The position numbers were made by a program, and so were the translations under genes. Positions 47,109 through 62,347 of a stretch of 64,000 nucleotides of DNA are shown piece after piece. Numbering within the stretch: the stretch's first letter is position 1; each line of letters begins with the position of its first letter. The notes below the pieces were generated by a model that did not search any database, was not told where the DNA came from, and saw only the letters and a list, made by a program, of their open reading frames with translations. The DNA is from an uncultured Tateyamaria sp. (GTDB taxonomy: Bacteria > Pseudomonadota > Alphaproteobacteria > Rhodobacterales > Rhodobacteraceae), in the NCBI RefSeq assembly GCF_947503465.1, contig NZ_CANNDN010000001.1, positions 1,550,001 to 1,614,000 of the forward strand, in the 5' to 3' direction.

Positions 47109-47888
47109 TCAGACCGTGCGCTCGACCATCATCTTCTTGATGTTCGCAATTGCTTCGGCCGGATTAAGCCCCTTGGGGCACGTTTTGGCGCAGTTCATGA
47201 TCGTGTGGCACCGATACAGTTTGAACGGATCCTCAAGGTCGTCGAGCCGCTCGCCCGTCGCCTCGTCCCGGCTGTCGATGATCCAGCGATAGGCGTGCAG
47301 CAGTGCTGCCGGTCCAAGGTAGCGGTCGCCATTCCACCAGTAGCTGGGGCAGGAGGTCGAGCACGAGGCGCACATGACACATTCATACAGACCATCGAGT
47401 TTCTTGCGGTCTTCGATGGACTGCTTCCACTCTTTGGCGGGGCGGTTTGTCTTGGTTTCCAGCCACGGCATGATGCTGGCGTGCTGTGCATAGAAGTGGG
47501 TCAGGTCCGGGATCAGGTCCTTGACCACGGGCATGTGCGGCAGGGGATAGACTTTCACGTCGCCCTTCACCTCATCCATGCCGTAGATGCAGGCAAGCGT
47601 GTTGATACCATCGATGTTCATCGCGCAGGACCCACAGATCCCCTCCCGGCACGAGCGGCGGAAGGTCAGCGTCGGGTCGATCTTGTTCTTGATGTAGATC
47701 AGCGCGTCCAGCATCATCGGGCCGCAATCATCCAGATCAACGAAATAGGTGTCCACGGACGGATTTTTGCCGTCATCCGGGTTCCAGCGATAGATCTGGA
47801 ACTTGCGCAGGTTGGTGGCGCCTTCGGGTTTGGGCCACGTCTTGCCCGTGGTCATGCGGGAGTTCTTGGGGAGTTTTAGCTGGACCAT
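47109..47888 (-). CDS. sdhB: Succinate dehydrogenase iron-sulfur subunit
   Basis: The 259-residue subunit carries the 2Fe-2S, 4Fe-4S and 3Fe-4S clusters that pass electrons from FAD to quinone. Cysteine motifs are [34 protein letters not shown] and [12 protein letters not shown]. Start [11 protein letters not shown]. It is the last gene of the sdhCDA-x-y-sdhB operon, separated from sdhA by two non-sdh genes. Confidence 0.97.
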
Positions 47889-47901
47889 TGCGGTTCTCCT
47901 T

Positions 47902-48231
47902 TCACGCGGTGAGCAGGGCAAGCCCTGCGCGTGTGATGCAAGTTTGGGTTTCGGGGCGCTGGAGCACGGATGTGACCAGCGCGACTGTTGTTTCAGAGAC
48001 ACCGATCACGGCATCCTTGGCAAATTCGCCGATCTCGCGGGCGGAGGCGTTGTCGATCACGCAGTCGGTGAATGGTGTGACAGCCGCTTCGGGCACAGCC
48101 GGAAAACGGGTGACAAGCGTCTCGGCCACCGCAGCCTTGGCGCTGCGGCGGGCCACACCATCGACAGCCTCGGTGGCTTCGGCACAGGCGGTGAGCGTCA
48201 GCAGGGTTACAAGCGCGGCGGCACGGATCAT
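47902..48231 (-). CDS. Small lipoprotein in the sdh operon
   Basis: The 109-residue protein has a lipoprotein signal ([16 protein letters not shown], acyl Cys at 16) and a short Ala/Val-rich domain with two cysteines ([17 protein letters not shown]) that may form a disulfide. Its ATG overlaps the stop of the sulfotransferase-like gene and it lies 13 bp before sdhB. I recall a hypothetical gene between sdhA and sdhB in Rhodobacter as well. A link to complex II assembly is possible but unproven. Confidence 0.8.
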
Positions 48232-49062: not shown

Positions 49063-50868
49063 TTAGTACACCCGCGCCTTCGGCGCGATTTTCTTGAGGT
49101 CGATGCCGCCATCATTATGGCTGGTCAACGGTTGCAGATGCACGCCACGATAGCCCAGGCTGGCCGCGTTGCCCTTGAACCAGACAAGGGAGTGCTTGCG
49201 CCAGTTCTCGTCATCGCGGTCGGGGTAATCCTCGTGCGCATGCGCGCCCCGGCTTTCCTTGCGCGCAGCCGCGGCCGTGATCGTCGCGACCGCGTTGGGC
49301 ATCAGGTTCGTCAGTTCCAGCGTCTCCATCAGGTCGGAGTTCCAGACCAGCGACGTATCCGTCACTTTCAGGTCATCCAGCTTGCCAGCGACCCCTTTCA
49401 TCTTCTCCTCGCCCTCGGCCAGTGTCTTGTCGGTGCGGAACACGGCGGCGTCGGCCTGCATGGTGCGCTGCATTTCCAGGCGCAGTTCGGCGGTCGGCAC
49501 GTGGCCCTTGGCATAGCGCAGGCCGTCGAAGCGCGAGAACGCCGCCTCGATCGACCGTTTGCTGGGCGTTGGCACGGGGGCCGCCGGGTCCACCACATCC
49601 TTGGCGCGGATGGCGGCGGCACGACCGAACACCACAAGGTCGATCAACGAGTTGGAGCCGAGGCGGTTCGCCCCGTGGACGGACGCACAGCCTGCCTCGC
49701 CCACGGCCATCAGGCCGGGAGACACGTTGTCGGGGTTGTCCTTGGTCGGTGCCAGCACTTCGCCCCAGTAATTCGTGGGAATGCCGCCCATGTTGTAGTG
49801 AACGGTGGGCAGGACCGGAATGGGTTCCTTGGTCAGGTCCACGCCCGCAAAGATGCGTGCGCTTTCCGAGATGCCCGGCAACCGTTCAGCCAGCGTTTCG
49901 GGCGGCAGGTGGTTGAGGTGCAGGTGGATGTGATCACTGTCCGCCCCCACGCCGCGCCCTTCGCGGATTTCCATGGTCATGCAGCGGCTGACCACGTCGC
50001 GGGAGGCGAGGTCCTTGTAGGTCGGCGCGTAGCGTTCCATGAACCGCTCGCCTTCGGAATTGGTAAGGTAGCCGCCCTCGCCCCGCGCGCCTTCGGTGAT
50101 CAGGCAGCCCGAGCCGTAGATGCCGGTGGGGTGGAATTGCACGAATTCCATGTCTTGCAGGGGTAGACCGGCGCGGGCCGTCATACCGCCACCGTCGCCG
50201 GTGCAGGTGTGGGCGGATGTAGCGGAGAAATACGCGCGCCCGTAGCCGCCTGTCGCCAGCACGACCATCTTGGCCGCAAAGAGGTGCATGGTGCCGTCAT
50301 CGAGCTTCCAGCACAGCACGCCCTGACAGACGCCGTCATCGGACATGATCAGGTCGATGGCGAAGTATTCGATGTAGAATTCCGCGTTGTTCTTGAGCGA
50401 CTGGCCGTAGAGCGTGTGCAGGATCGCGTGGCCGGTCCGGTCGGCGGCGGCGCAGGTGCGCTGCACGGGGGGGCCTTCGCCAAATTCGGTGGTGTGACCG
50501 CCAAAGGGGCGTTGGTAGATCTTGCCCTCTTCGGTGCGCGAGAACGGCACCCCGTAATGTTCAAGCTCGTACACCGCCTTGGGCGCTTCACGGGCAAGGT
50601 ATTCCATCGCGTCCGTGTCACCCAGCCAATCAGAGCCCTTGACGGTGTCGTACATGTGCCACTGCCAGTTGTCCGGGCCCATGTTCGACAGCGACGCTGC
50701 AATGCCACCTTGGGCCGCGACGGTGTGCGAGCGGGTCGGGAACACCTTGGTCACGCAGGCGGTGCGCAGCCCTTGTTCGGCCATGCCAAGCGTCGCGCGC
50801 AGTCCGGCGCCGCCGGCCCCCACGACCACGACGTCATATTCATGCGTCTCGTAATCATATGCAGCCAT
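49063..50868 (-). CDS. sdhA: Succinate dehydrogenase flavoprotein subunit
   Basis: The 601-residue catalytic subunit oxidises succinate to fumarate. The FAD-binding N-terminus is [15 protein letters not shown]; covalent FAD attaches to His in [12 protein letters not shown] (residue about 47). Other motifs are [23 protein letters not shown], with the active-site Arg, and [22 protein letters not shown]. It is the third gene of the operon, 42 bp after sdhD. Confidence 0.98.
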
Positions 50869-50910: not shown

Positions 50911-51282
50911 TCAAAGCGCGATGCGTGCGATTGCAAACAAACCTGCGGCAATCATGGTGTAAGCAAAGGCCGTTGTGGCGATCAGCGTCAATTTGCCCGC
51001 CGTGCCGTGCACGTAATCCTCGATCGCGGCGTGGGCTTCGCGCATCAGATGCACAACGATGACGATCAGGGACAACGCCATCAGGATGGCCGGGATCGGG
51101 CGGCTGAAGAACGCCAGCACATCCGCATGGCCGCCACCGAGGGCAGAGGCAAACAGCAGGACCATGATGGGCACCAGCGGCACCAGCAGGATCGAGCTGA
51201 CCATCATCTGCCAGTGGTGATGCGTGCCCTCGCGGCCCGAGCCGAGACCCATGGCGCGTTTGCGGTCTGTCAAATAGCGCAT
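50911..51282 (-). CDS. sdhD: Succinate dehydrogenase membrane anchor subunit D
   Basis: The 123-residue protein has three membrane helices and the quinone/haem region GTHHHWQMMVSSILLVPL near residue 20 and HLMREAHAAIEDYVH. The haem-ligand His is likely the one in the middle helix. It follows sdhC by 12 bp. Confidence 0.93.
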   Translation of the reverse strand: MRYLTDRKRAMGLGSGREGTHHHWQMMVSSILLVPLVPIMVLLFASALGGGHADVLAFFSRPIPAILMALSLIVIVVHLMREAHAAIEDYVHGTAGKLTLIATTAFAYTMIAAGLFAIARIAL

Positions 51283-51294
51283 GTCGATCCCTCC

Positions 51295-51678
51295 TTAAAC
51301 CGCGATCAGAACAAGAAGCGTCAGCACGGTTGCGCCGATGAACATGCCCTTGGCCATGGTCTCGGACACCGGGACCTGGACGAGATAGCCGAAGTCCCAG
51401 ATGACGTGACGCAAACGGCCCAGCATGTGGTAGAAGATGCCCCACATCGCGGCGATCAGGACCAACTGACCCAAGATGCTGCGCAGGAGCCAGTCAACCG
51501 AGTTGAACGCCGCCTCGGACGTGGCAGCGGCAAGCAACCATGCCACGACCAGAACGCTTGCAAGCAGGCAACCGATGCCGGTGATCCGCACCATGATAGA
51601 GGAGATCGATGTCCATTGCGGACGGTAAATCTCAATATGCGGCGAGAGCGGGCGATTGCCCCGATTGACGTCGGCCAT
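51295..51678 (-). CDS. sdhC: Succinate dehydrogenase cytochrome b556 subunit C
   Basis: The 127-residue protein has three helices and the SdhC pattern RPLSPHIEIYRPQWTSISSIMVRITG and FYHMLGRLRHVIWDFGY, the latter with the haem-ligand His. It is the first gene of the operon. The paired TGTGATCACA element lies 113 bases before its ATG. Confidence 0.95.
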   Translation of the reverse strand: MADVNRGNRPLSPHIEIYRPQWTSISSIMVRITGIGCLLASVLVVAWLLAAATSEAAFNSVDWLLRSILGQLVLIAAMWGIFYHMLGRLRHVIWDFGYLVQVPVSETMAKGMFIGATVLTLLVLIAV

Positions 51679-51791
51679 GGCGCTTCCTTTATCTTCGGCT
51701 GCCTCTTGATACTCCTTTTTACGCCCGTGTCACGCGCGAGGCTTTCACAATTGTTGCGGTTTTTTGGCGCATTTGCAGGATTCTGCGCAAA

Positions 51792-51822
51792 TGTGATCAC
51801 ACATGAAATGCGTGTGATCACA
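51792..51822 (-). promoter_or_regulatory. Paired TGTGATCACA palindromes upstream of sdhC
   Basis: TGTGATCACA occurs at 51792-51801 and 51813-51822, 21 bp apart start to start, i.e. about two helical turns. The flanks (ACACATGAAATGCGTGT) make the whole block an extended inverted repeat. The same pair with the same spacing and the same distance to the ATG stands before sucC. This is a likely operator. Confidence 0.75.
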
Positions 51823-51829
51823 AGTTCAG

Positions 51830-52489
51830 CTACTCTGCAAAATAAGTCACCTGCCTCGTGGTCTCGCGTTGCAGCTTGCGTTTGATCTGTTCGGGGTAAT
51901 CTTCGAATCCCTGTGCCGTCACCACAAAGGCACCAGGTCCGGTGATCAGGTTTTCGAAGAAATAGGCCGTCAGATCGGTCTGGTCCGTCTCGATGGCGAT
52001 GGCATTCACGGTGATGCCGTCATGGTCCAGATCAGGCCGTTGGGTCGCCGGTTCCACACCTTCGTTTGACACCCCGTCGCCTGACACATCAATCACCTTG
52101 CGCAGGCAATGCGCGACCGGCGCAAAAGCAGTGCGCGAAATGATCAACGCCTCGCCAATGGCGGTGGAATAATTGCGCCAGACACGCTCGTCCGCTTCGA
52201 CCCTGTCGGCCAGCGCCAGCACGTCCCTGTACGTGGTGATCCGCGTCCATGGAATTGTCTGGCGCTGGCGCGACGAACCGGTCCATTGCACCAGCGCCAC
52301 CTGTGCCCGCTGTTCGACAAGGGCATCCGCCACAATCCCGTCCCGCAGACCATGGGCCAATCCGTCCATCTGGATGCGGTATTCCCGGGCATCGACGGAC
52401 CCGGACACGTCCACCGCCAACAGCAATGCCAGGTCGCAGGCCCGGACCGGCGCGGCCAACAAGACGATCAGGGGTACCAGGCGCCACAT
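51830..52489 (-). CDS. DUF1194 (von Willebrand A-like) protein
   Basis: The 219-residue exported protein has a signal peptide (MWRLVPLIVLLAAPVRA) and a VWA-like fold with the metal site DVSGSVDAREY and VIDVSGDGVSNEG. DUF1194 proteins are common in Rhodobacterales; their role is unknown. The gene points towards sdhC; its stop is only 8 bases from the palindrome pair. Confidence 0.88.
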   Translation of the reverse strand: MWRLVPLIVLLAAPVRACDLALLLAVDVSGSVDAREYRIQMDGLAHGLRDGIVADALVEQRAQVALVQWTGSSRQRQTIPWTRITTYRDVLALADRVEADERVWRNYSTAIGEALIISRTAFAPVAHCLRKVIDVSGDGVSNEGVEPATQRPDLDHDGITVNAIAIETDQTDLTAYFFENLITGPGAFVVTAQGFEDYPEQIKRKLQRETTRQVTYFAE

Positions 52490-52539
52490 GCCCCGATCCT
52501 AGCGCGCAGGACCCACGGCTGCACATCACAAATGCGACG

Positions 52540-53250
52540 CTATTCAAGACTGTCGTATAACTGGCGCAGGTGATCTTCGAACTCGGTACACATGATGATT
52601 TCGGTGGTGCCCAGGTCGTAGAACGCATTCGCCTCGCCACAGGATTCGATGCGCACACCCAATGTGGTTGGCAGTTCAAAGTCCTCGTTCAGCGCAGCAA
52701 CCTCCGCAGCCATAACTTCGGAGGTCAGCAGCGCGTGGCCGCCATCATCAAACAATATGGTGTCGCCCCGCCCGGCAATGTCGTCAAAGGCGGGGCCCCA
52801 GCTGTCCAGAGCCAGCTGGAACTCCTCGGGACAGGTGTCGGCGCGCTCTTCTGGCAGGCCGAGGTCGATGGCAAAATCCTCGCGCGCGCCGGGGTTGGCG
52901 CCATAGAACAGGCAGACGGTGTTGTAGAACCGTTGTTCATCAGGTCCGTGCACATCCCAATAGGCAACGTCGCCGGCAAAATCCGCCTCGGCCAGAAAGC
53001 CGAAGGCCGTGTCATAGGCCAGTGCCTGCGCCGCCTCTTCCTCGTAAAAGCCGTCAATCAGCAGGATGGAGGCGACGTCAGCGGCATCCTCCTCCTGTCC
53101 GAACACGGGCAATTGCAGGATATCGATCAGGGCATGACCCAGTTCGTGATAGAAAATGCCCAGCAGGTTCGCCTTGACGAAGGCTTCGCGCTCTTCATTC
53201 GCCAGGGCAGCACCGGGCAGCATCAGGGCCAGCACTACGTATCGCAACAT
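52540..53250 (-). CDS. DUF4344 metallopeptidase-like protein
   Basis: The 236-residue protein has a signal peptide (MLRYVVLALMLPGAALA) and a zinc-peptidase motif FYHELGHALID (HExxH) with a third ligand region GQEEDAADVAS. DUF4344 proteins resemble gluzincins of unknown substrate and probably act in the periplasm. ATG 53250 follows GAGGT; GTG 53265 is an alternative start. It is 50 bp upstream of the DUF1194 gene. Confidence 0.87.
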   Translation of the reverse strand: MLRYVVLALMLPGAALANEEREAFVKANLLGIFYHELGHALIDILQLPVFGQEEDAADVASILLIDGFYEEEAAQALAYDTAFGFLAEADFAGDVAYWDVHGPDEQRFYNTVCLFYGANPGAREDFAIDLGLPEERADTCPEEFQLALDSWGPAFDDIAGRGDTILFDDGGHALLTSEVMAAEVAALNEDFELPTTLGVRIESCGEANAFYDLGTTEIIMCTEFEDHLRQLYDSLE

Positions 53251-53320
53251 CACATTACCTCGCACAGTGCGGGATGGCGGGTGGGGCGTCGTCGTCAGAC
53301 GCGCGTCGCCCTGTCATCCC

Positions 53321-54352
53321 CTACAGCGGCATCAAGGCCCAGTAATCCAGATCGAGCAAGACCTCAGGCACATATTTTCCGTCCTCGCCCCGCAACCGAA
53401 AAGGTGCACCGCCCTTGGTCGCCACAAGGCGCAACCGGATCGCACCAACGCCAGGGGCCGCCGTTTCGGCCTTGTCCAACACCTCGGACCAGGCCCGAAC
53501 GGTATCGCCGGCAAGGCAAGGGTTCGCATGCGCGCCCGCGTTCAGGCCAACCACCATCTGCGCATTGGCCAACCCGTTGAAAGACAGCGCCCGCGCCAAC
53601 GAAATCACATGTCCGCCATAGATCAGCCGGGTGCCGTCCGGCCGCGCCGACGTGTCAAAGTGTACCTTGGCCGTGTTCTGCCACAGGCGCGTCGCCATCA
53701 TGTGCTCGGCCTCTTCGACTGTCACGCCGTCAACGTGATCGATCTGCTCCCCGATCTCGTAATCGCCCCAGCGGTGCCGCTCGCCCGCAAGGTCGAAATC
53801 GTAGCTGTCGAACCGCAAGCCCTCCGGCACCACAAGTGTCCCCGCGGGGACAACCGTGTCCAGATCAGGCACGACCGTGTCCGGCGCGGGCGCGTCGACC
53901 TTGCCTTTGCGCACCATCACCCAACGGACATAATCCAATACATCTTCGCCCCGCTGATTGCGACCGGTGGTGCGGACCCAGACAACGCCGGTCTTTCCGT
54001 TGGAGTTCTGTTTGACCCCGATCACTTCGGATCGCGCGGTCAGCGTGTCGCCAGGCCAAACCGGCAACATCCAGCGGCCCTCGGCATAGCCAAGGTTCGC
54101 CACCGCGTTCAGGGACACATCAGGCACGGTTTTGCCAAAGACCGTGTGAAAGGCAATCATGTCATCCAGAGGGGATGCGGCAAGTCCGCAGGCCCGCGCA
54201 AAACTGTCCGACGAATACAATGCGTGCCGCGCCGGGTAGAGCGCGTGATAAAGCGCCCGCTCCCCACCCCCAACAGTCCGCGGCACGGCATGGGTCAGCA
54301 CATCGCCGACATGGTAGTCCTCGAAAAAGCGGCCCGCATTGGTCTTGGCCAT
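53321..54352 (-). CDS. mch: Mesaconyl-CoA hydratase
   Basis: MaoC-like hydratase of 343 residues that converts mesaconyl-C1-CoA and water to beta-methylmalyl-CoA in the ethylmalonyl-CoA pathway. It begins MAKTNAGRFFEDYHVGDVL and contains two hot-dog domains (PRTVGGGERALYHALYPAR and DHVDGVTVEEAEHMMATRLWQ). Length equals that of the Rhodobacter enzyme. Its ATG shares a base with the stop of the DUF1737 gene, in the mcl2-nnrU-DUF1737-mch operon (transcribed in that order). Confidence 0.95.
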   Translation of the reverse strand: MAKTNAGRFFEDYHVGDVLTHAVPRTVGGGERALYHALYPARHALYSSDSFARACGLAASPLDDMIAFHTVFGKTVPDVSLNAVANLGYAEGRWMLPVWPGDTLTARSEVIGVKQNSNGKTGVVWVRTTGRNQRGEDVLDYVRWVMVRKGKVDAPAPDTVVPDLDTVVPAGTLVVPEGLRFDSYDFDLAGERHRWGDYEIGEQIDHVDGVTVEEAEHMMATRLWQNTAKVHFDTSARPDGTRLIYGGHVISLARALSFNGLANAQMVVGLNAGAHANPCLAGDTVRAWSEVLDKAETAAPGVGAIRLRLVATKGGAPFRLRGEDGKYVPEVLLDLDYWALMPL

Positions 54353-54555
54353 CACTGGTCTCCCAACTTGATGTCCGGGGTGTAATCGCCGGGCACCTCT
54401 TTCGTGACAGCCTGTCCGCATCGCATGGTCCCGGCGGCGTGGTCCCAGGTCTGCGTGGGTGATCCGTGCAGGTCCCAGCCCGCGTTCAGGGCGGCGGTAA
54501 CTTTATGGCAAAAGGTGGACGTGTCCTCTTCGGACAAAAAACGATAGAGTTTCAT
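54352..54555 (-). CDS. DUF1737 small protein
   Basis: The 67-residue protein begins MKLYRFLSEEDTSTFCHKVTAALNAGWDLHGSP, the DUF1737 pattern. It is soluble and of unknown function. It starts 5 bp after nnrU and runs one base into mch. Confidence 0.85.
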   Translation of the reverse strand: MKLYRFLSEEDTSTFCHKVTAALNAGWDLHGSPTQTWDHAAGTMRCGQAVTKEVPGDYTPDIKLGDQ

Positions 54556-54559
54556 ACAC

Positions 54560-55114
54560 TTACCCAGGGAACGGCCAGACACCCAGCCAATTGTGCACCA
54601 TCCCGATCAACCCCAGCAGCACAACGGATCCGGCCAGAAACATCGCATCCTTGGCAAGCGTGCCTTCTGGCCCGCGCTGCCAGCCCGGTTCGGCGCTATT
54701 GATGATGCGGGCGGTCAGAACGGCCCAGACAAGCAAGCCGCCAAACATCAGGATCGAGGCAAGATCGCCGTTGACCAAAAGATGTGCCGCGGCCCAGATC
54801 GAAAAGCCGGTCAGCATCGGATGCCGCATGCCCGACACCAACTTGCCGCGCTTGGGCGCAGGGCTGAGCAGGTAGATCGCGATCAGCATAGCAAGGTTGT
54901 TGACGTGCACCATAAAGGCGGGCGGTTGCCACACGGGGATGAACTCCACGCCGCGATAGCCGATGATCATCAGCACGATGGCAGCCGCGATCGCCAGAGC
55001 CACAGCCCCCTTGCCCGGGTCGCCCATAGACGCCCGACGGGCCGGAGCCACACGTTTGAACAGATGGGCGGCCCACCACAGGGCTACACCCGCAATCAGG
55101 ATGATCCAGTACAT
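54560..55114 (-). CDS. NnrU family membrane protein
   Basis: The 184-residue protein has five membrane helices and the NnrU motifs ALWWAAHLFKRVAP, MRHPMLTGFSIWAAAHLLVNGD and LLVWAVLTARIINS. NnrU was first seen in denitrification clusters, but many members, as here, are in unrelated places. It is 3 bp after mcl2. Confidence 0.88.
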   Translation of the reverse strand: MYWIILIAGVALWWAAHLFKRVAPARRASMGDPGKGAVALAIAAAIVLMIIGYRGVEFIPVWQPPAFMVHVNNLAMLIAIYLLSPAPKRGKLVSGMRHPMLTGFSIWAAAHLLVNGDLASILMFGGLLVWAVLTARIINSAEPGWQRGPEGTLAKDAMFLAGSVVLLGLIGMVHNWLGVWPFPG

Positions 55115-55117
55115 CGC

Positions 55118-55972
55118 TTATCCTTCCGCCATAGCCGCGATCGCATCGGCTTTGGCCAACGTCTCGCGCGCGGTCACGATGTGCAGATTTTCGACAATTC
55201 GTCCATCGACAACGGCCACGCCCTGGCCGGATGCCTCGACTTCTTCAAACGCTGCGATCTGCCGGCGGGCCAGGTCAATTTCATCTTCCGAAGGCGAAAA
55301 CGCGCCATTGGCAATGTCAACCTGGGCCGGGTGGATCAGCGTTTTGCCATCAAAGCCCATATCGCGACCCTGATCGCATTCGACCTGCAATCCCGCGTCG
55401 TCCTTGAACGCATTATAGACACCATCGACGATGGCACATCCATGCGCCTTGGCAGCCAGAAGACACAGGCCCAACCCGGTTTGCAATGGCAGCCGGTCCG
55501 CCCGGAACCGGCTCTGCAACTCCTTGGCCAGATCATTGGTGCCCATGACCATGCCCTGAAGCTTGGGATGTGCTGCTATCGCAGCCGCGTTGATCATGCC
55601 CAGTGGCGTTTCCATCATCGCCCACAGCGGCATATCGCCCGTTATGGCGGCCAACGCATCCAGGTCGGCCGGGCCGTTCACCTTGGGCAACAGCACGGCG
55701 TCAGCGCCCATGGCGGCCGCCGCCTGTGCATCATCCCGGCCCCAGGCCGTGTCGAATGCGTTGATCCGCACGATATTGAACCGTGCACCATAACCGCCCT
55801 GCGCCAGTGCGTCGGCCAGCGTGGCGCGCGCGCTTTCCTTCTCTTCAAGCGACACCGCATCTTCGAGGTCAAAAATGATCGCATCGACCGGCAAACCGCG
55901 CGCCTTGTCCAGCGCACGCGGCTTGGACCCCGGAATGTAAAGAACAGAACGAAGAGGGCGGTCGAGGGCCAT
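55118..55972 (-). CDS. mcl2: (3S)-malyl-CoA thioesterase (CitE-like)
   Basis: The 284-residue CitE-fold protein hydrolyses malyl-CoA to malate and CoA in the ethylmalonyl-CoA pathway. It starts RPLRSVLYIPGSKPRALDKAR and has FDLEDAVSLEEK, VLLPKVNGPADL, METPLGMINAAAI and GTNDLAKEL. Length (284) and its place near mch, sdh, mdh and sucC agree with Mcl2 of Rhodobacter rather than the longer lyase Mcl1 (about 318), though citrate lyase-like alternatives remain. It heads the mcl2-nnrU-DUF1737-mch operon. Confidence 0.87.
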   Translation of the reverse strand: MALDRPLRSVLYIPGSKPRALDKARGLPVDAIIFDLEDAVSLEEKESARATLADALAQGGYGARFNIVRINAFDTAWGRDDAQAAAAMGADAVLLPKVNGPADLDALAAITGDMPLWAMMETPLGMINAAAIAAHPKLQGMVMGTNDLAKELQSRFRADRLPLQTGLGLCLLAAKAHGCAIVDGVYNAFKDDAGLQVECDQGRDMGFDGKTLIHPAQVDIANGAFSPSEDEIDLARRQIAAFEEVEASGQGVAVVDGRIVENLHIVTARETLAKADAIAAMAEG

Positions 55973-56324
55973 GGGTCGTGATCCTTGCGAGTCATAAAGT
56001 TGCGCGGAAAGGGGCATTTTTTGCCAGATAGTTCAAGCGCAATTTTCTGCGTTGCAGAAATTCGACACCGTTTCAGGCTGGACGACCCCGCATTTCTTCA
56101 AATTGCAAACACCTCCGCGCGGTGCGTTAACCATTATTCAAGCCTCCCGCCGCAGTCTTTGCCCATTCCGATGCACGGGGAGGGCCGTTTCGGCAGGGCC
56201 GCCGAACACTTCACGGATCGCGCAATCGGATCAGACATGACCCGGGGCTGCCCGGTCATCGCCGGAATTCCGGTTGGGCCAGATGACCAGTGGTGACGCC
56301 TTCCTTTGTGAAAGGCTGAACGTG
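55973..56324. other. Divergent intergenic region mcl2 / exported protein
   Basis: The 352 bases hold the inverted repeat listed separately and otherwise no gene-like frame. The part 55985-56130 is AT-rich, as expected for promoters in both directions; no clear -35/-10 pair could be picked. Confidence 0.5.
56044..56060 (-). promoter_or_regulatory. Inverted repeat TTTCTGC-GTT-GCAGAAA upstream of mcl2
   Basis: Two 7-base arms pair perfectly around GTT, 71 bases before the mcl2 start. A related but imperfect sequence, TTCTGCGCTGCGGCA, lies in the ccr leader at 39934-39948. It may be an operator for ethylmalonyl-CoA pathway genes. Confidence 0.45.
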
Positions 56325-56642
56325 ATGACACGGATGATGAATGTGATGACAGCAGGTGTTCTGGCGCTTGCAGCGATGACAAATGCGGCACAGGCACAAC
56401 AGGCGCGCAATTGCGGCCCGCGAGAGGTTGTGGTGGACCGATTGGCCGAAGGATATGGCGAAACGCGCCAATCCATGGGTCTGGGCGCCAACAATTCGGT
56501 GATCGAAGTGTTCGCCTCGGAAGAAAGCGGCACGTGGACGATCACGGTGACCACGCCGAATGGCATGACCTGTCTGGTCGCCAGCGGACAAGCCTACGAG
56601 ACCCTGGCCGAGGCCCTGCCCGCCAAGGGCAGCGACGCCTGA
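56325..56642 (+). CDS. Small exported protein, unknown function
   Basis: The 105-residue protein has a signal peptide (MTRMMNVMTAGVLALAAMTNAAQA) and a short secreted domain with two cysteines (ARNCGPREVV, GMTCLVASG) that may form a disulfide. It ends AYETLAEALPAKG. I recognise the type from Rhodobacterales genomes but not a named family. A strong terminator follows. Confidence 0.75.
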   Translation: MTRMMNVMTAGVLALAAMTNAAQAQQARNCGPREVVVDRLAEGYGETRQSMGLGANNSVIEVFASEESGTWTITVTTPNGMTCLVASGQAYETLAEALPAKGSDA

Positions 56643-56690
56643 CGCGCGGGGCGGACGACACGTCCGCCTCACGATACGAACCGGATGCAA

Positions 56691-56717
56691 AGGGCGCTTT
56701 TCGAAGCGCCTTTTTTC
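56691..56717 (+). terminator. Terminator after the exported-protein gene
   Basis: GGGCGCTT and AAGCGCCT pair (one G-U) around TTCG, followed by TTTTT. A second small hairpin (GGCGGACG/CGTCCGCC) lies at 56650-56668. Confidence 0.85.
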
Positions 56718-56771
56718 GTGTGATGGATTGGCGCGCGCAATCGTCAGGCAGAACCCGATCCGCCCCGGACA

Positions 56772-57206
56772 TCAACGTCGCGGGACGCGGCGAAGGGTCA
56801 TGCCCCACTTTTCATCCGCGCCAAAGCCCAGCTTTTCATAAAAGCCCCGCGCATTTGCCGTGCGCCCGGTCAAGAGCATGATCTTGTAACACTCCGCGAC
56901 CCACGCGGCATCGATTGCGGCCTGCATGACCTGCCGCCCGCGTCCCCTGCCGCGATGATCCGCATGGGTCACCACATTTTCGATCAGCGCATAGGGCCGT
57001 CCGCCGTGGGTCATGTTTGGCAGGATGTGCAGGGTCACCATCGCGGTCAGAACATCACCGTCGAAAGCTCCCAACACGGTGGTGCCGCTGTGGCTTGTGA
57101 GGGTGGCAAAGGCCGTGCCGTCGGCCAGGGCCTGATCCCCCGCAAGGTGACTGTAAAGACGCAGCGCATCTTGCGTGTCCTCGACCCCAAGCGGACGCAC
57201 CGTCAT
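56772..57206 (-). CDS. GNAT family N-acetyltransferase
   Basis: The 144-residue protein begins MTVRPLGVEDTQDALRLYSHLAG and has the acetyl-CoA loop ENVVTHADHRGRGRGRQVM and FYEKLGFGADEKWGM at the end. Substrate unknown. It overlaps the TSUP gene by 4 bp (ATGA). Confidence 0.87.
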   Translation of the reverse strand: MTVRPLGVEDTQDALRLYSHLAGDQALADGTAFATLTSHSGTTVLGAFDGDVLTAMVTLHILPNMTHGGRPYALIENVVTHADHRGRGRGRQVMQAAIDAAWVAECYKIMLLTGRTANARGFYEKLGFGADEKWGMTLRRVPRR

Positions 57207-57955
57207 GTCAGCCCATCCCAGATCAGCTTGGCCCCGGTCATGACAAGCAGCACATAGGTCAGCATGAAAAACGCCCGCTCGGGCATCCAGTGATGGGCCC
57301 GCACCCCAAGCCAAGCCCCGAAGAGGGCAAACGGGGCAAGCGCCAGATTTGCAACAGCCGTCTGCGCCGTGAACATCCCCAGAAAGGCGTACGGCACAAA
57401 TTTGAAGATGTTGATGGCAGTAAAGATCAACACGGTGTTGGCCTGATATTCCGTCTTGGTGGGGCGCAGGGACAGCAGATAGACCGCCGCGGGTGGCCCG
57501 CCCGCATGGCTGACAAAGCTGGTGAAACCGGCAACCGTCCCGGTCAACACCCCAACCCAGGCAGGCAACGCCCGCGACGCCAGCCGAATCCATCCCTGAT
57601 TGCGTCCGACCTGCCAGATCACGAAGCCGATGGATATGACCCCGATCAACACCCGGAACACATCCGGTTCGGTCCTCGAAAACAGCAGCGCGCCCAGGGC
57701 CACACCCGGCAGGCCCCCGAGAATCATCAGAACCGACACCCGCACATCCCATTTGCCCCAGTAGGGTTTCAGCGTGGACGCATCGATCAGCATCAGCAAC
57801 GGCAGTACGACGCCCAACGCCATGCCCGGTTCGATGACCAGCGCCAGAATCGAGGCCGAGGCAAAGGATGCGCCGGACCCGAACCCGCCCTTGGATATTC
57901 CGGCAAACACCACTGCGGGGGCGGCTACGGCAAAAAACCACAGATCAAGGTCCAT
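57203..57955 (-). CDS. TSUP (TauE/SafE) family membrane protein
   Basis: The 250-residue protein has about seven helices and the TSUP features FAGISKGGFGSGASFASAS and GVLTGTVAGFTSFVSHAGGPPAAVYLL. It is the second TSUP protein in the window (the other is at 33.5 kb) and belongs to a different branch. Substrate unknown. Start MDLDLWFF was chosen because the first helix follows it. Confidence 0.88.
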   Translation of the reverse strand: MDLDLWFFAVAAPAVVFAGISKGGFGSGASFASASILALVIEPGMALGVVLPLLMLIDASTLKPYWGKWDVRVSVLMILGGLPGVALGALLFSRTEPDVFRVLIGVISIGFVIWQVGRNQGWIRLASRALPAWVGVLTGTVAGFTSFVSHAGGPPAAVYLLSLRPTKTEYQANTVLIFTAINIFKFVPYAFLGMFTAQTAVANLALAPFALFGAWLGVRAHHWMPERAFFMLTYVLLVMTGAKLIWDGLT

Positions 57956-58082
57956 GGGCGTCCTTTCATCCAAAAAACGGCCCGTTTCCGCAGCCTTAGC
58001 GCGCAATTATGATAGACGCCAGCCGCTCGGCCTCACTACGCTGCGGTGCGGCACACTTGCGCGACGCCCTGTCACGCGCTAG

Positions 58083-59087
<1,005 letters not shown>

Positions 59088-59109
59088 ACCTGCCACAAGT
59101 GTGAATTTA

Positions 59110-59141
59110 GGGGTCGGGTGCCATCGCATCCGGCCCCTTTT
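59110..59141 (+). terminator. Terminator after mdh
   Basis: GGGGTCGG and CCGGCCCC pair (one G-U) around a 14-nt loop and are followed by TTTT, 22 bases past the mdh stop. Confidence 0.7.
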
Positions 59142-59149
59142 ATGTTTAT

Positions 59150-59947
59150 ATGGTTCACATGCCCCAGTCGCGCCCCATAGAACGAAAACTGACCACGGTT
59201 CTGGCGGCCGATGCGGCCAATTATTCCGGCAGGATGAGCCTGGACGAAGAAGGCACCGTACGGGCCCTGCGCGCGTCCCGTGCGATCATCGACGCCGCGA
59301 TTGCCGAGTGCGGCGGGCGGATCGCCAATACGTCCGGGGACGGGCTGATTGCGGACATCCCGTCTGTTGTCGGTGCCGTCCGCTGCGGGGTGTCGATCCA
59401 ACGTACGCTGAATGACCGGCCTGATCTGCTGCCCTTCCGGCTGGGCATCCATCTGGGCGACGTAATTGTCGAAGGCACGGATTTGCTGGGCGACGGTGTC
59501 AACCTGGCCGCCCGGTTGCAAGAAATGGCCGATGTGGGCGGTATCCTGATTTCGCAACAGGTCTACGACCACGCCCGCGGCAAGCTGGGCACTGTTGAGC
59601 TGCGCCCCTTGGGCCCCGCAACCCCCAAGCACCTTGCCGAAGAGGTGGGTGTATATGCCGTCGTCGCAGAGGGCATCACGCCGCCGCGCTTGCTGGACAA
59701 TTTGGGGCCGAAAGTCGGACCGATCAGCGCGCAGCTTCCCGATGATGACGCCGGGGACAGCGCCCATGCCCGGTTCAAGACGGACCGCAATCGCATCCTG
59801 GGCGCCTTTGGTGCAATTCTGATCGTGGATGTGGCCGCCGGTTTGCCGTTCTACATCACGGTCCTGCCGGAGGTCGGACTTCTGTACGTGCTGTACCGAA
59901 AGTGGCGTGCCTATCGCAGCGAACGCGCCGCACCCGCCGCCCCCTAG
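59150..59947 (+). CDS. Class III adenylate/guanylate cyclase-domain protein with membrane tail
   Basis: The 265-residue protein has a class III cyclase domain (ERKLTTVLAADAANYSGRMSLDEEGT, NTSGDGLIADIPSVVGAVRCG, LGIHLGDVIVEGTDLLGDGVNLAARLQ). The metal-binding Asp residues are present. A C-terminal hydrophobic part (LGAFGAILIVDVAAGLPFYITVLPEVGLL) anchors it. Cyclases of this kind usually carry TPR regions instead. ATG 59150 and 59159 are both possible and neither has a clear ribosome binding site. It overlaps the convergent glycosyltransferase gene by 4 bp. Confidence 0.83.
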   Translation: MVHMPQSRPIERKLTTVLAADAANYSGRMSLDEEGTVRALRASRAIIDAAIAECGGRIANTSGDGLIADIPSVVGAVRCGVSIQRTLNDRPDLLPFRLGIHLGDVIVEGTDLLGDGVNLAARLQEMADVGGILISQQVYDHARGKLGTVELRPLGPATPKHLAEEVGVYAVVAEGITPPRLLDNLGPKVGPISAQLPDDDAGDSAHARFKTDRNRILGAFGAILIVDVAAGLPFYITVLPEVGLLYVLYRKWRAYRSERAAPAAP

Positions 59948-60978
59948 ACGTCGATCACGTCCCGCAGCCACGGATTGCGCCGCACCACATCTGCATCAAA
60001 ACCCGCAGGCATCAGGTCTGGCATGGCCGCGCCAACGCGTGCTGCGGGGTCGAAGGCAATGGTGTGCGACAGGCCAAACCGCACAAGGCGTGCGTGCCTG
60101 TCCGGTGTGAGCGCAAACAGGTCCCGATGCGCCGCGCGCGCCTCTGCCATCGTCGCGCAACGCTCAAGCAACCAGGCCACCTGGGCCGCGCGATGCGGTT
60201 GCAATATCTGCGCCTGGACCTCGGGTGTGGTTTGGGCGTACCGCAGGACCTTCATGACCCAATGCACCGGCGTCAGCCCGTCAAAATGCAACAGCACCGC
60301 ACTGGTCGACACCCGCTTGGCCGCGCGCCGTTGCCGTCCTTCGGACCCGGTGCGCGTGGCGGTGTGGACGCCCAACCGCAGCCCTGCGCCAACCCGCACG
60401 CCGCTCTTTCCGGCACCGTGGGAATACTGGCCGCGTTTCATCATCCGCGCAAACGGACCAAATGCAGCGTCGCACGCGGCCGCGCTCAAATCCGATGTGG
60501 CACGAAATGACCCGTCAAACAGCCCCGCTTGCACGCCGTCCGGAAACACCCGCTCGAGGACTGGCAGGTTCACCTCCGTCATCGGATCATCATGGGTCGC
60601 CAGTTCGGCCGCCAGCGTCCCCTCCTGCCAGATAAACTCATCCGCGTCGATGTGGAACAGCCACTCCAGATCACAGCGGTTCTGCGCGAAATTTGCGTTG
60701 ATCGTCTGGCGCCGCATCTGCGACGGGGGGCGCCCCTTGGTCGGGCGGCGTTCGGTCCAATAAGCATCATCGCAAAGCTGGACATGACATCCCGGGATCG
60801 CGGCCAGTGACGCGGCCGCCGGGTCCTCCGGGTCGTCCAGAAAGACAAAAACGGCCGCCGCGCCGGTCGCCAAATGCCACTGCACATTCGCAGTCACCAG
60901 AGCGCCGGGTTCATTGGCTGTCATAACCACGCCCCAACGCGGGTCATTTTCCTTATGTTTTACGGAAAATTGCGACAT
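59944..60978 (-). CDS. Glycosyltransferase family 2-like protein (Glyco_tranf_2_4 type)
   Basis: The 344-residue protein starts [25 protein letters not shown] and has [14 protein letters not shown], the DxD-like metal site of this family, and HIDADEF context typical of LPS/polysaccharide glycosyltransferases. Its C-terminal half is variable. It is divergent from sucC, and the palindrome pair before sucC lies 31 bases upstream of its start, so that element could affect both. Confidence 0.8.
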
Positions 60979-61009
60979 TGCTGCATTGATTCCTTTCCAA
61001 ATTCCTAAT

Positions 61010-61040
61010 TGTGATCACACGATTTCAACGTGTGATCACA
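61010..61040 (+). promoter_or_regulatory. Paired TGTGATCACA palindromes upstream of sucC
   Basis: TGTGATCACA occurs at 61010-61019 and 61031-61040, 21 bp apart start to start. The block reads as an inverted repeat with 13-base arms (TTGTGATCACACG / CGTGTGATCACAA). The proximal edge is 113 bases before the sucC ATG, exactly as at sdhC. Confidence 0.75.
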
Positions 61041-61153
61041 AATGTCGGAAATCTGCCCGTAAACCCCTGCTGCGACATATTTTCCGTTTACGCGCTGTTC
61101 AGTGTTGGTCGAATAGGCCCAACGTTGACGTATCTATACGGGATCAAACCGCC

Positions 61154-62347
61154 ATGAACATCCATGAATACCAGGCCAAAGCCCTTCTGCGCAGCTACGG
61201 GGCTCCGGTCTCGGACGGGCGCGTTGTCCTGCGAGCTGAGGACGCCAAGACAGCCGCAGGCGCATTGGACGGTCCGCTGTGGGTGGTCAAGGCACAGATC
61301 CACGCCGGTGGCCGCGGCAAAGGCAGCTTCAAAGAAGCAGATGCAGGCGACAAGGGCGGCGTGCGCCTAACCAAGTCGGTTGAGGAAGCCGCCGAAGAGG
61401 CCAAGAAGATGCTGGGCCGCACCCTTGTGACGCACCAGACCGGTCCAGCCGGCAAGCAGGTCAACCGCATCTACATCGAAGACGGCTCGGGCATCGAGAC
61501 CGAGATGTATCTCGCCCTTCTGGTCGACCGTGCGACCAGCCGCGTGTCCTTTGTCTGCTCGACCGAGGGTGGCATGGATATCGAAGAGGTCGCCGCCGAA
61601 ACCCCGGAGAAAATCCTCAGCTTCAGCGTCGATCCTGCCACGGGATACCAGGCCTACCATGGTCGCCGCATCGCCTTCATGCTGGGTCTGGAAGGCAAGC
61701 AGGTCAAGCAATGCGTGGGCCTGATGGGTCTGCTCTACAAGGCGTTCATGGAAAAAGACATGGAGATGCTCGAGATCAACCCGTTGATCGTGACCGATGG
61801 CGGCGACCTGAAAGTGCTGGATGCCAAGGTCAGCTTTGACGGCAACGCAATCTACCGCCATGCCGACATCAACGAATTGCGCGACGAGACCGAGGAAGAC
61901 CCCAAGGAACTCGCCGCGTCCAAGTACGACCTGAACTACATCGCGCTGGATGGCGAGATTGGCTGCATGGTGAACGGCGCGGGCCTGGCCATGGCGACCA
62001 TGGACATCATCAAGCTGTACGGTGCCGAGCCTGCCAACTTCCTGGATGTGGGCGGTGGCGCCACCAAGGAAAAGGTGACCGAGGCGTTCAAGATCATCAC
62101 CTCGGACCCCAACGTCAAAGGGATCCTCGTCAACATCTTTGGCGGTATCATGCGCTGCGACGTGATTGCCGAAGGCGTGGTGGCAGCGGTCAAGGAAGTG
62201 GGATTGCAAGTGCCGCTGGTGGTTCGGCTTGAGGGCACAAACGTCCAGCAGGGCAAGGACATCATCAACAACTCCGGCCTTGACGTGATTGCCGCCGACG
62301 ACCTCAAGGACGGCGCCCAGAAGATCGTGACAGCGGTCAAGGGTTGA
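61154..62347 (+). CDS. sucC: Succinyl-CoA ligase, beta subunit
   Basis: The 397-residue beta subunit starts [19 protein letters not shown]. It has the ATP-grasp region ([19 protein letters not shown]), [53 protein letters not shown] and [15 protein letters not shown]. It works with the alpha subunit SucD, normally the next gene. Here three other genes follow and sucD is not in the window. Confidence 0.97.

Follow-up and report, generated by a model that had tools for sequence, protein, structure and literature searches.

Paired palindromes before sdhC and sucC in Rhodobacteraceae: predicted double operators of a GntR regulator, most likely AkgR

Why should two pairs of one and the same palindrome lie equally far from two operons of the tricarboxylic acid (TCA) cycle? 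The question is raised by a 64,000-nucleotide (nt) stretch of DNA from an uncultured Tateyamaria sp. (contig NZ_CANNDN010000001.1, positions 1,550,001 to 1,614,000; the whole stretch is here called the window), where the palindrome TGTGATCACA stands twice before sdhC and twice before sucC. We think it likely that the pairs are double operators of a GntR-family regulator with an FCD domain, most likely the ortholog of AkgR, set in phase with the promoter and most likely activating sdhCDAB and the suc cluster. Much about this regulator and what it controls is already known in Rhodobacter sphaeroides, and the part for which we found no description is the geometry of the double operator with its whole-turn phasing.

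Two pairs before sdhC and sucC

Exact copies of TGTGATCACA are located at 51792-51801, 51813-51822, 61010-61019 and 61031-61040, with no fifth copy in the window. They are arranged as two pairs with a spacer of 11 bp, that is 21 bp from start to start, and in both pairs the half-sites of each palindrome abut. The distance from the pair to the start of sdhC (51678, minus strand) is 113 bp, as is the distance to the ATG of sucC (61154, plus strand). An earlier reading of the sequence alone had described this arrangement and called it very unlikely by chance, and both statements hold. Only 0.08 copies per window are expected by chance, and four copies were reached in none of 100 shuffles. The source genome contains 2 exact pairs with spacer 11, against about 0.00001 expected from window composition with sites taken as independent, and 10 single sites, against about 6.5 expected under an order-2 model built on the window. 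Chance is excluded for the pairs, while the single sites are close to their chance number. Because of this, most lone sites, the fumC one described below included, may be chance. Single sites within coding regions (L003, L008) were taken as chance, as was a pair with 3 mismatches at 56321-56351, inside an open reading frame (ORF).

The features of the window that matter here are the following.

51792..51801, no strand: TGTGATCACA palindrome, predicted promoter-proximal operator of sdhC (exact match)
51813..51822, no strand: TGTGATCACA palindrome, predicted distal operator of sdhC (exact match)
61010..61019, no strand: TGTGATCACA palindrome, predicted distal operator of sucC (exact match)
61031..61040, no strand: TGTGATCACA palindrome, predicted promoter-proximal operator of sucC (exact match)
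51758..51770, minus strand: GCGCCAAAAAACC element between operator pair and sdhC -35 (sequence; GCGCCAA recurs in relatives)
51728..51733, minus strand: inferred sdhC -35 box GTGACA, 58 bp after the proximal palindrome
51706..51711, minus strand: inferred sdhC -10 box TATCAA, 16 bp after the -35 box (by eye; similar boxes in relatives)
61087..61092, plus strand: tentative sucC -35-like box GTTTAC, 46 bp after the pair (conserved TT at +46/47 in relatives)
51295..51678, minus strand: sdhC, succinate dehydrogenase cytochrome b556 subunit (family confirmed)
50911..51282, minus strand: sdhD (translation; adjoins sdhC in 22 of the 23 sdhC pairs listed)
49063..50868, minus strand: sdhA (translation)
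47109..48002, minus strand: ORF holding sdhB, whose true start is probably inside it (translation)
61154..62347, plus strand: sucC, succinyl-CoA ligase beta subunit (family confirmed)

When a public genome collection was scanned for exact pairs, at least 122 were found, in at least 119 stretches. Among the 122 pairs listed, 96 lie before sucC and 23 before sdhC, with 3 left unclassified, two of these near the end of a stretch. The search of genome and relatives that the sequence-only reading had proposed thus finds pairs that are not scattered, with 119 of 122 before one of the two genes. Most of the 80 stretch titles listed name Rhodobacteraceae, Rhodobacterales or genera that we take to belong there. 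When the spacer was allowed to vary from 0 to 30, the exact pair was found in 120 of 198 genomes of the family; at the 75 places listed in family genomes the spacer is 11 in 63, 10 in 9 and another value in 3. A similar picture is seen in 67 sdhC regions, with palindromes 21 bp apart in 52 and 20 bp apart in 12, the other 3 having no second copy there. On the other hand, in 113 genomes from 113 other families of the class no spacer-11 pair turned up even when 2 mismatches were allowed, and a reversed control matched in 1 of them. As far as sampled, the pair is a feature of the family Rhodobacteraceae.

Some single cases stand apart. One stretch titled Nocardioides marinus (Actinomycetota; L094) carries a Rhodobacteraceae-like suc/sdh region with the pair, which is probably contamination or mislabelling. 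A Robiginitomaculum stretch (L038), with a SucC 94% identical to that of the window, may be a similar case. In another genome three exact palindromes lie close together, with spacers of 5 and 17 (G125:C6:303624-303675), on a contig other than that of the two usual pairs. Finally, fumC of the source genome has an exact single palindrome at -100 (G000:C1:468968-468977; L002, L255, L274). With 0 or 1 mismatch the palindrome is present in none of 27 other fumC loci, and for this reason fumC was dropped as a member of the regulon; a match with 2 mismatches is found at scattered places in 3 of them. The fumC site is either chance or a local addition to the regulon.

Spacing between operators and promoters

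The sequence-only reading had also stressed the identical position of the two pairs. The equal distance of 113 bp is a coincidence of the source genome and no rule, because distances range from 94 to 168 bp among the loci examined (those of the exact-pair scan plus the window): 94 to 168 bp at sucC, with 92 of 97 loci at 94 to 114 bp, and 113 to 168 bp at 24 sdhC loci. What is conserved, at sdhC, is the helical phase between pair and promoter.

This was observed in 67 distinct sdhC regions, the window not among them, which remained from 73 loci with sdhC after removal of 2 without palindrome and 4 repeats. Four sources supplied these loci: the exact-pair scan, two pattern scans jointly covering 41-102 bp without a gap (loci kept for only part of the matches), a search of four genomes, and stretches chosen mainly for lying outside the main peak. 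Off-peak distances are consequently over-represented, and those below 41 bp are hardly sampled. We asked for exactly one GTGAC[AT] box 30-100 bp after the palindrome, and 59 of the 67 regions have it, in fixed helical phase as is typical of sites for Class I activators. The distances are 46-47 bp (6 regions), 56-60 bp (39), 68-70 bp (11) and 78-79 bp (3), with none between. For the 20 off-peak regions the best period is 10.9 bp, and none of 200,000 random draws was as well phased, kinship being ignored.

The subset from the exact-pair scan, which is blind to GTGACA, gives the same classes: 23 of 24 sdhC regions, window included, have a box at 46-47, 56-59, 68-69 or 78-79 bp. One of these boxes reads GTAGACA, two regions have a further match at 13 or 132 bp, and one region has none. 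No sharp period is seen among the 101 pattern matches listed, chance matches included, because one peak dominates; the test was therefore redone on verified sdhC regions. Operator-promoter distances at sdhC thus differ in steps of one helical turn, relative to a promoter that is itself predicted. Such steps fit an activator bound twice, far upstream, on the face of the polymerase. The dimeric regulator bound twice on one helix face, as proposed in the sequence-only reading, is the best reading of the pair.

In the relatives, read by eye, GTGACA is followed by a spacer of about 16 bp and then often by a TANNAN-like box, which over the four classes would centre the proximal palindrome somewhere between about -88 and -120, counted from the inferred start. 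A tree of SdhC, with SdhD where present, was built for 60 loci, a narrower range admitting one of two regions with a double match, and it requires at least 15 changes among the four distance classes. Within the same 60 regions, the motif GCGCCAA is found between palindrome and -35 box in 18, with an almost constant spacing to the latter: 36-37 bp in 12 regions of the 56-60 class and 4 of the 68-70 class, and 26-27 bp in 2 of the 46-47 class. The motif is thus 36 bp from the -35 box in the 4 regions of the longer class and 26-27 bp from it in the 2 of the shorter, so that insertions and losses of a whole turn must have occurred at two different places. The GCGCCAAAAAACC/GCGCCAA element itself is either an A-tract or the site of another regulator.

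The sucC promoter was searched in 92 of 97 regions, five with longer leaders being left out. A conserved TT is located at +46/47 in the longer-leader group (75 loci) and at +35/36 in the 17 shorter-leader loci, about one turn apart, and TATA is present at +69 to +71 in 23 of the 75. With the value for the short group assumed from this shift, sucC and sdhC would fall on one -10 lattice, the sucC promoter being tentative. The A/T content between pair and promoter has a period of 9.5-10 bp at long-leader sucC loci and of about 10 bp in the main sdhC class, which suggests that the DNA in between is curved.

A candidate regulator and its distribution

A genome search found 8 FCD proteins in the source genome. 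One of them, encoded outside the window (G000:C4:202733-203380, minus strand), carries the palindrome in exact form 7 bp upstream of its start codon, and both PF00392 and PF07729 score above their cut-offs in it, as for a GntR-family protein with an FCD domain. An ortholog is present in 51 of 61 family genomes; 53 match at E <=1e-30, from which G019 and G054 were subtracted for having only a 37-38% identical protein, while G033 at 46% was included. In 33 of the 61 there is another GntR protein as well, with 34-44% identity to the candidate.

Most ortholog loci carry the palindrome too (24 of 30 examined, 20 exact and 4 with one mismatch). In 21 of the 24, a TTGA(C/T) box starts 17 bp ahead of it. 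A protein bound to the palindrome would then sit on the expected -10 region, which is most naturally read as negative autoregulation. In 19 of the 24 (L141-L170) only 7-9 bp separate the palindrome from the first ATG, and the message of the regulator may be nearly leaderless.

Presence of the pair goes along with presence of the regulator. The pair is found in 50 of 51 genomes with the ortholog and in 1 of 10 without it (Fisher test 6e-9, kinship ignored). Among the 50, the pair is exact with spacer 0-30 in 38 and has spacer 11 with 1-3 mismatches in 12 (in G058 only at 3). Among 17 genomes selected by eye, 13 have the regulator gene at 5-16 kb from a pair, which fits RSP_0981 being near RSP_0962-0976 by locus number; in the source genome it is on a different contig.

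AkgR of R. sphaeroides was reportedly the subject of a study by Imam, Noguera and Donohue (mBio 2015). We take AkgR to be RSP_0981, and likewise the regulator CceR to be RSP_1663. The passages seen of PMC6365646 identify GTGATCAC among AkgR binding sites and call AkgR a transcriptional activator. Those of PMC4344238 predict the GntR protein RSP_0981 as a regulator of suc, sdh and 2-oxoglutarate dehydrogenase genes, so under the identity assumed above the targets agree as well as the motif. At the sequence level, a GntR-family regulator and the GTGATCAC motif at suc/sdh targets are both found here; what this relative has is most likely the known AkgR system, regulator and targets alike. Of the two regulators that the sequence-only reading had considered, AkgR is thus favoured by its motif, and CceR is not. 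The whole-turn phasing and the autoregulatory site found here are absent from the passages of other papers considered. No description of a double operator with whole-turn phasing was found in the literature searched, the primary AkgR study lying outside it, which is weak evidence of novelty. A double site is also unmentioned in the parts seen of PMC11323563, PMC5507952, PMC4419725, PMC5343134, PMC7471390 and PMC8557541; of these, PMC7471390 reports mapped transcription starts for R. sphaeroides.

Proposed mechanism and rival explanations

In the mechanism that we propose, one dimer would bind each 10-bp palindrome, and the two dimers would sit two helical turns apart on the same face. At sdhC and sucC the pair would act from far upstream, in fixed helical phase with the promoter, and sdhCDAB and the suc cluster would be activated through contact with RNA polymerase across A/T-phased, probably curved DNA. 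At the gene of the regulator, a single site over the expected -10 region would let the protein limit its own synthesis. A bolder form, for and against which we see equal weight, is that the two-dimer platform activates TCA promoters from about -88 to -120, across DNA with an A/T tract every 10 bp or so, with the path of the DNA as part of the mechanism, and that it has been moved by whole turns many times within the family because only helical phase matters. If true, the sdhC promoters of Rhodobacteraceae would be a natural spacing experiment. The four operator distances, seen in 59 natural sdhC promoters, point to control at a distance and offer a ready set of variants for testing the mechanism.

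Several points weigh against this reading. Sites, spacing, conservation, sdhC phasing and co-occurrence are read directly from the DNA, and it is from them that we infer binding, activation, start sites, curvature and polymerase contact. FCD GntR proteins are mostly repressors. At sdhC, GTGAC[AT] is missing from the range in 6 of the 67 regions and occurs twice in 2 others (at 50 and 59, and at 58 and 89). The distance classes are somewhat clustered on the tree, where shuffled labels need 18.9 changes on average and the real ones 15; weak forks are numerous, and the well-supported branches alone force 2-4 changes per class. The sucC promoter is only tentative because an unsupervised two-block search by expectation-maximisation (EM) over the 92 upstream regions converged on the phased A/T pattern and found no promoter. 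As for the regulator, 6 of the 30 ortholog loci have no palindrome at their own promoter, and orthology to AkgR of R. sphaeroides is argued from motif, targets and synteny rather than from a comparison with the AkgR sequence. The co-occurrence count, besides ignoring kinship, took any pair, its location before sdhC or sucC not being checked individually. It also includes two exceptions: G019, an assembly of about 210 contigs that is 91% complete, has an exact pair and no ortholog found, and G009 has the ortholog and no spacer-11 pair even at 3 mismatches.

The same regulator on the same sites could instead repress sdhC and sucC, by holding the polymerase or by looping, with release by a metabolite. 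The habit of FCD proteins and the site over the expected -10 region of the regulator gene speak for this, and dependence on phase is also known for repression loops. The pairs, however, are far upstream of the sdhC promoter as inferred, and a search of the window allowing up to 1 mismatch gave no additional site close to either promoter; added to the description of AkgR as an activator (PMC6365646, in the part seen), this leaves repression rather unlikely. We find it less probable still that the pairs are bound by some other protein, either a second GntR paralog or a regulator of unrelated type, and that the GntR gene is just one more target. Such a reading would be helped by the further GntR protein found in 33 of the 61 genomes, all the more as only a paralog of this kind accompanies the pair in G019. 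It has to face the published prediction that suc and sdh of R. sphaeroides are under GntR control (PMC4344238, passages seen), the near-complete co-occurrence of pair and ortholog, and the closeness of the gene to a pair in most genomes picked by eye.

That the pairs are sites for CceR is a very faint prospect. The name belongs to a LacI-family regulator of central carbon genes in Rhodobacteraceae (PMC5507952, in the part seen), similar in role and different in motif and family. Passages of PMC4344238 predict RSP_1663 to regulate sdh and mdh in R. sphaeroides, with the motif [A/G/T]GTT N6-8 AAC[A/C/T], which is unlike the palindrome. This motif was not found in the window at 51600-52000, 57900-58200 or 60900-61200. 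Chance repeats, at last, have next to no probability: the near-expected number of single sites would suit them, and the count of pairs and their place before the same two genes stand against it.

The double operator that we favour can also be set beside other known systems. A CRP/FNR-type site has TGTGA and TCACA half-sites separated by 6 bp, and sites of this type were rejected on motif, as the half-sites abut here. CRP at lac-type promoters, an example of a Class I activator, likewise binds upstream and works only when the helical phase is right; here the protein family differs, there is no half-site spacer, two dimers would lie side by side and distances are greater. Another likeness, going by the passages seen of PMC6365646, is PS417_07240, a GntR-like protein of Pseudomonas simiae. 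It belongs to another pathway, deoxyribonate oxidation, and what is described for it is a single palindrome, between -47 and -40 relative to the start codon, and no pair. It is 32% identical to AkgR and, in common with the candidate regulator, has the GTGATCAC palindrome upstream of its own start codon.

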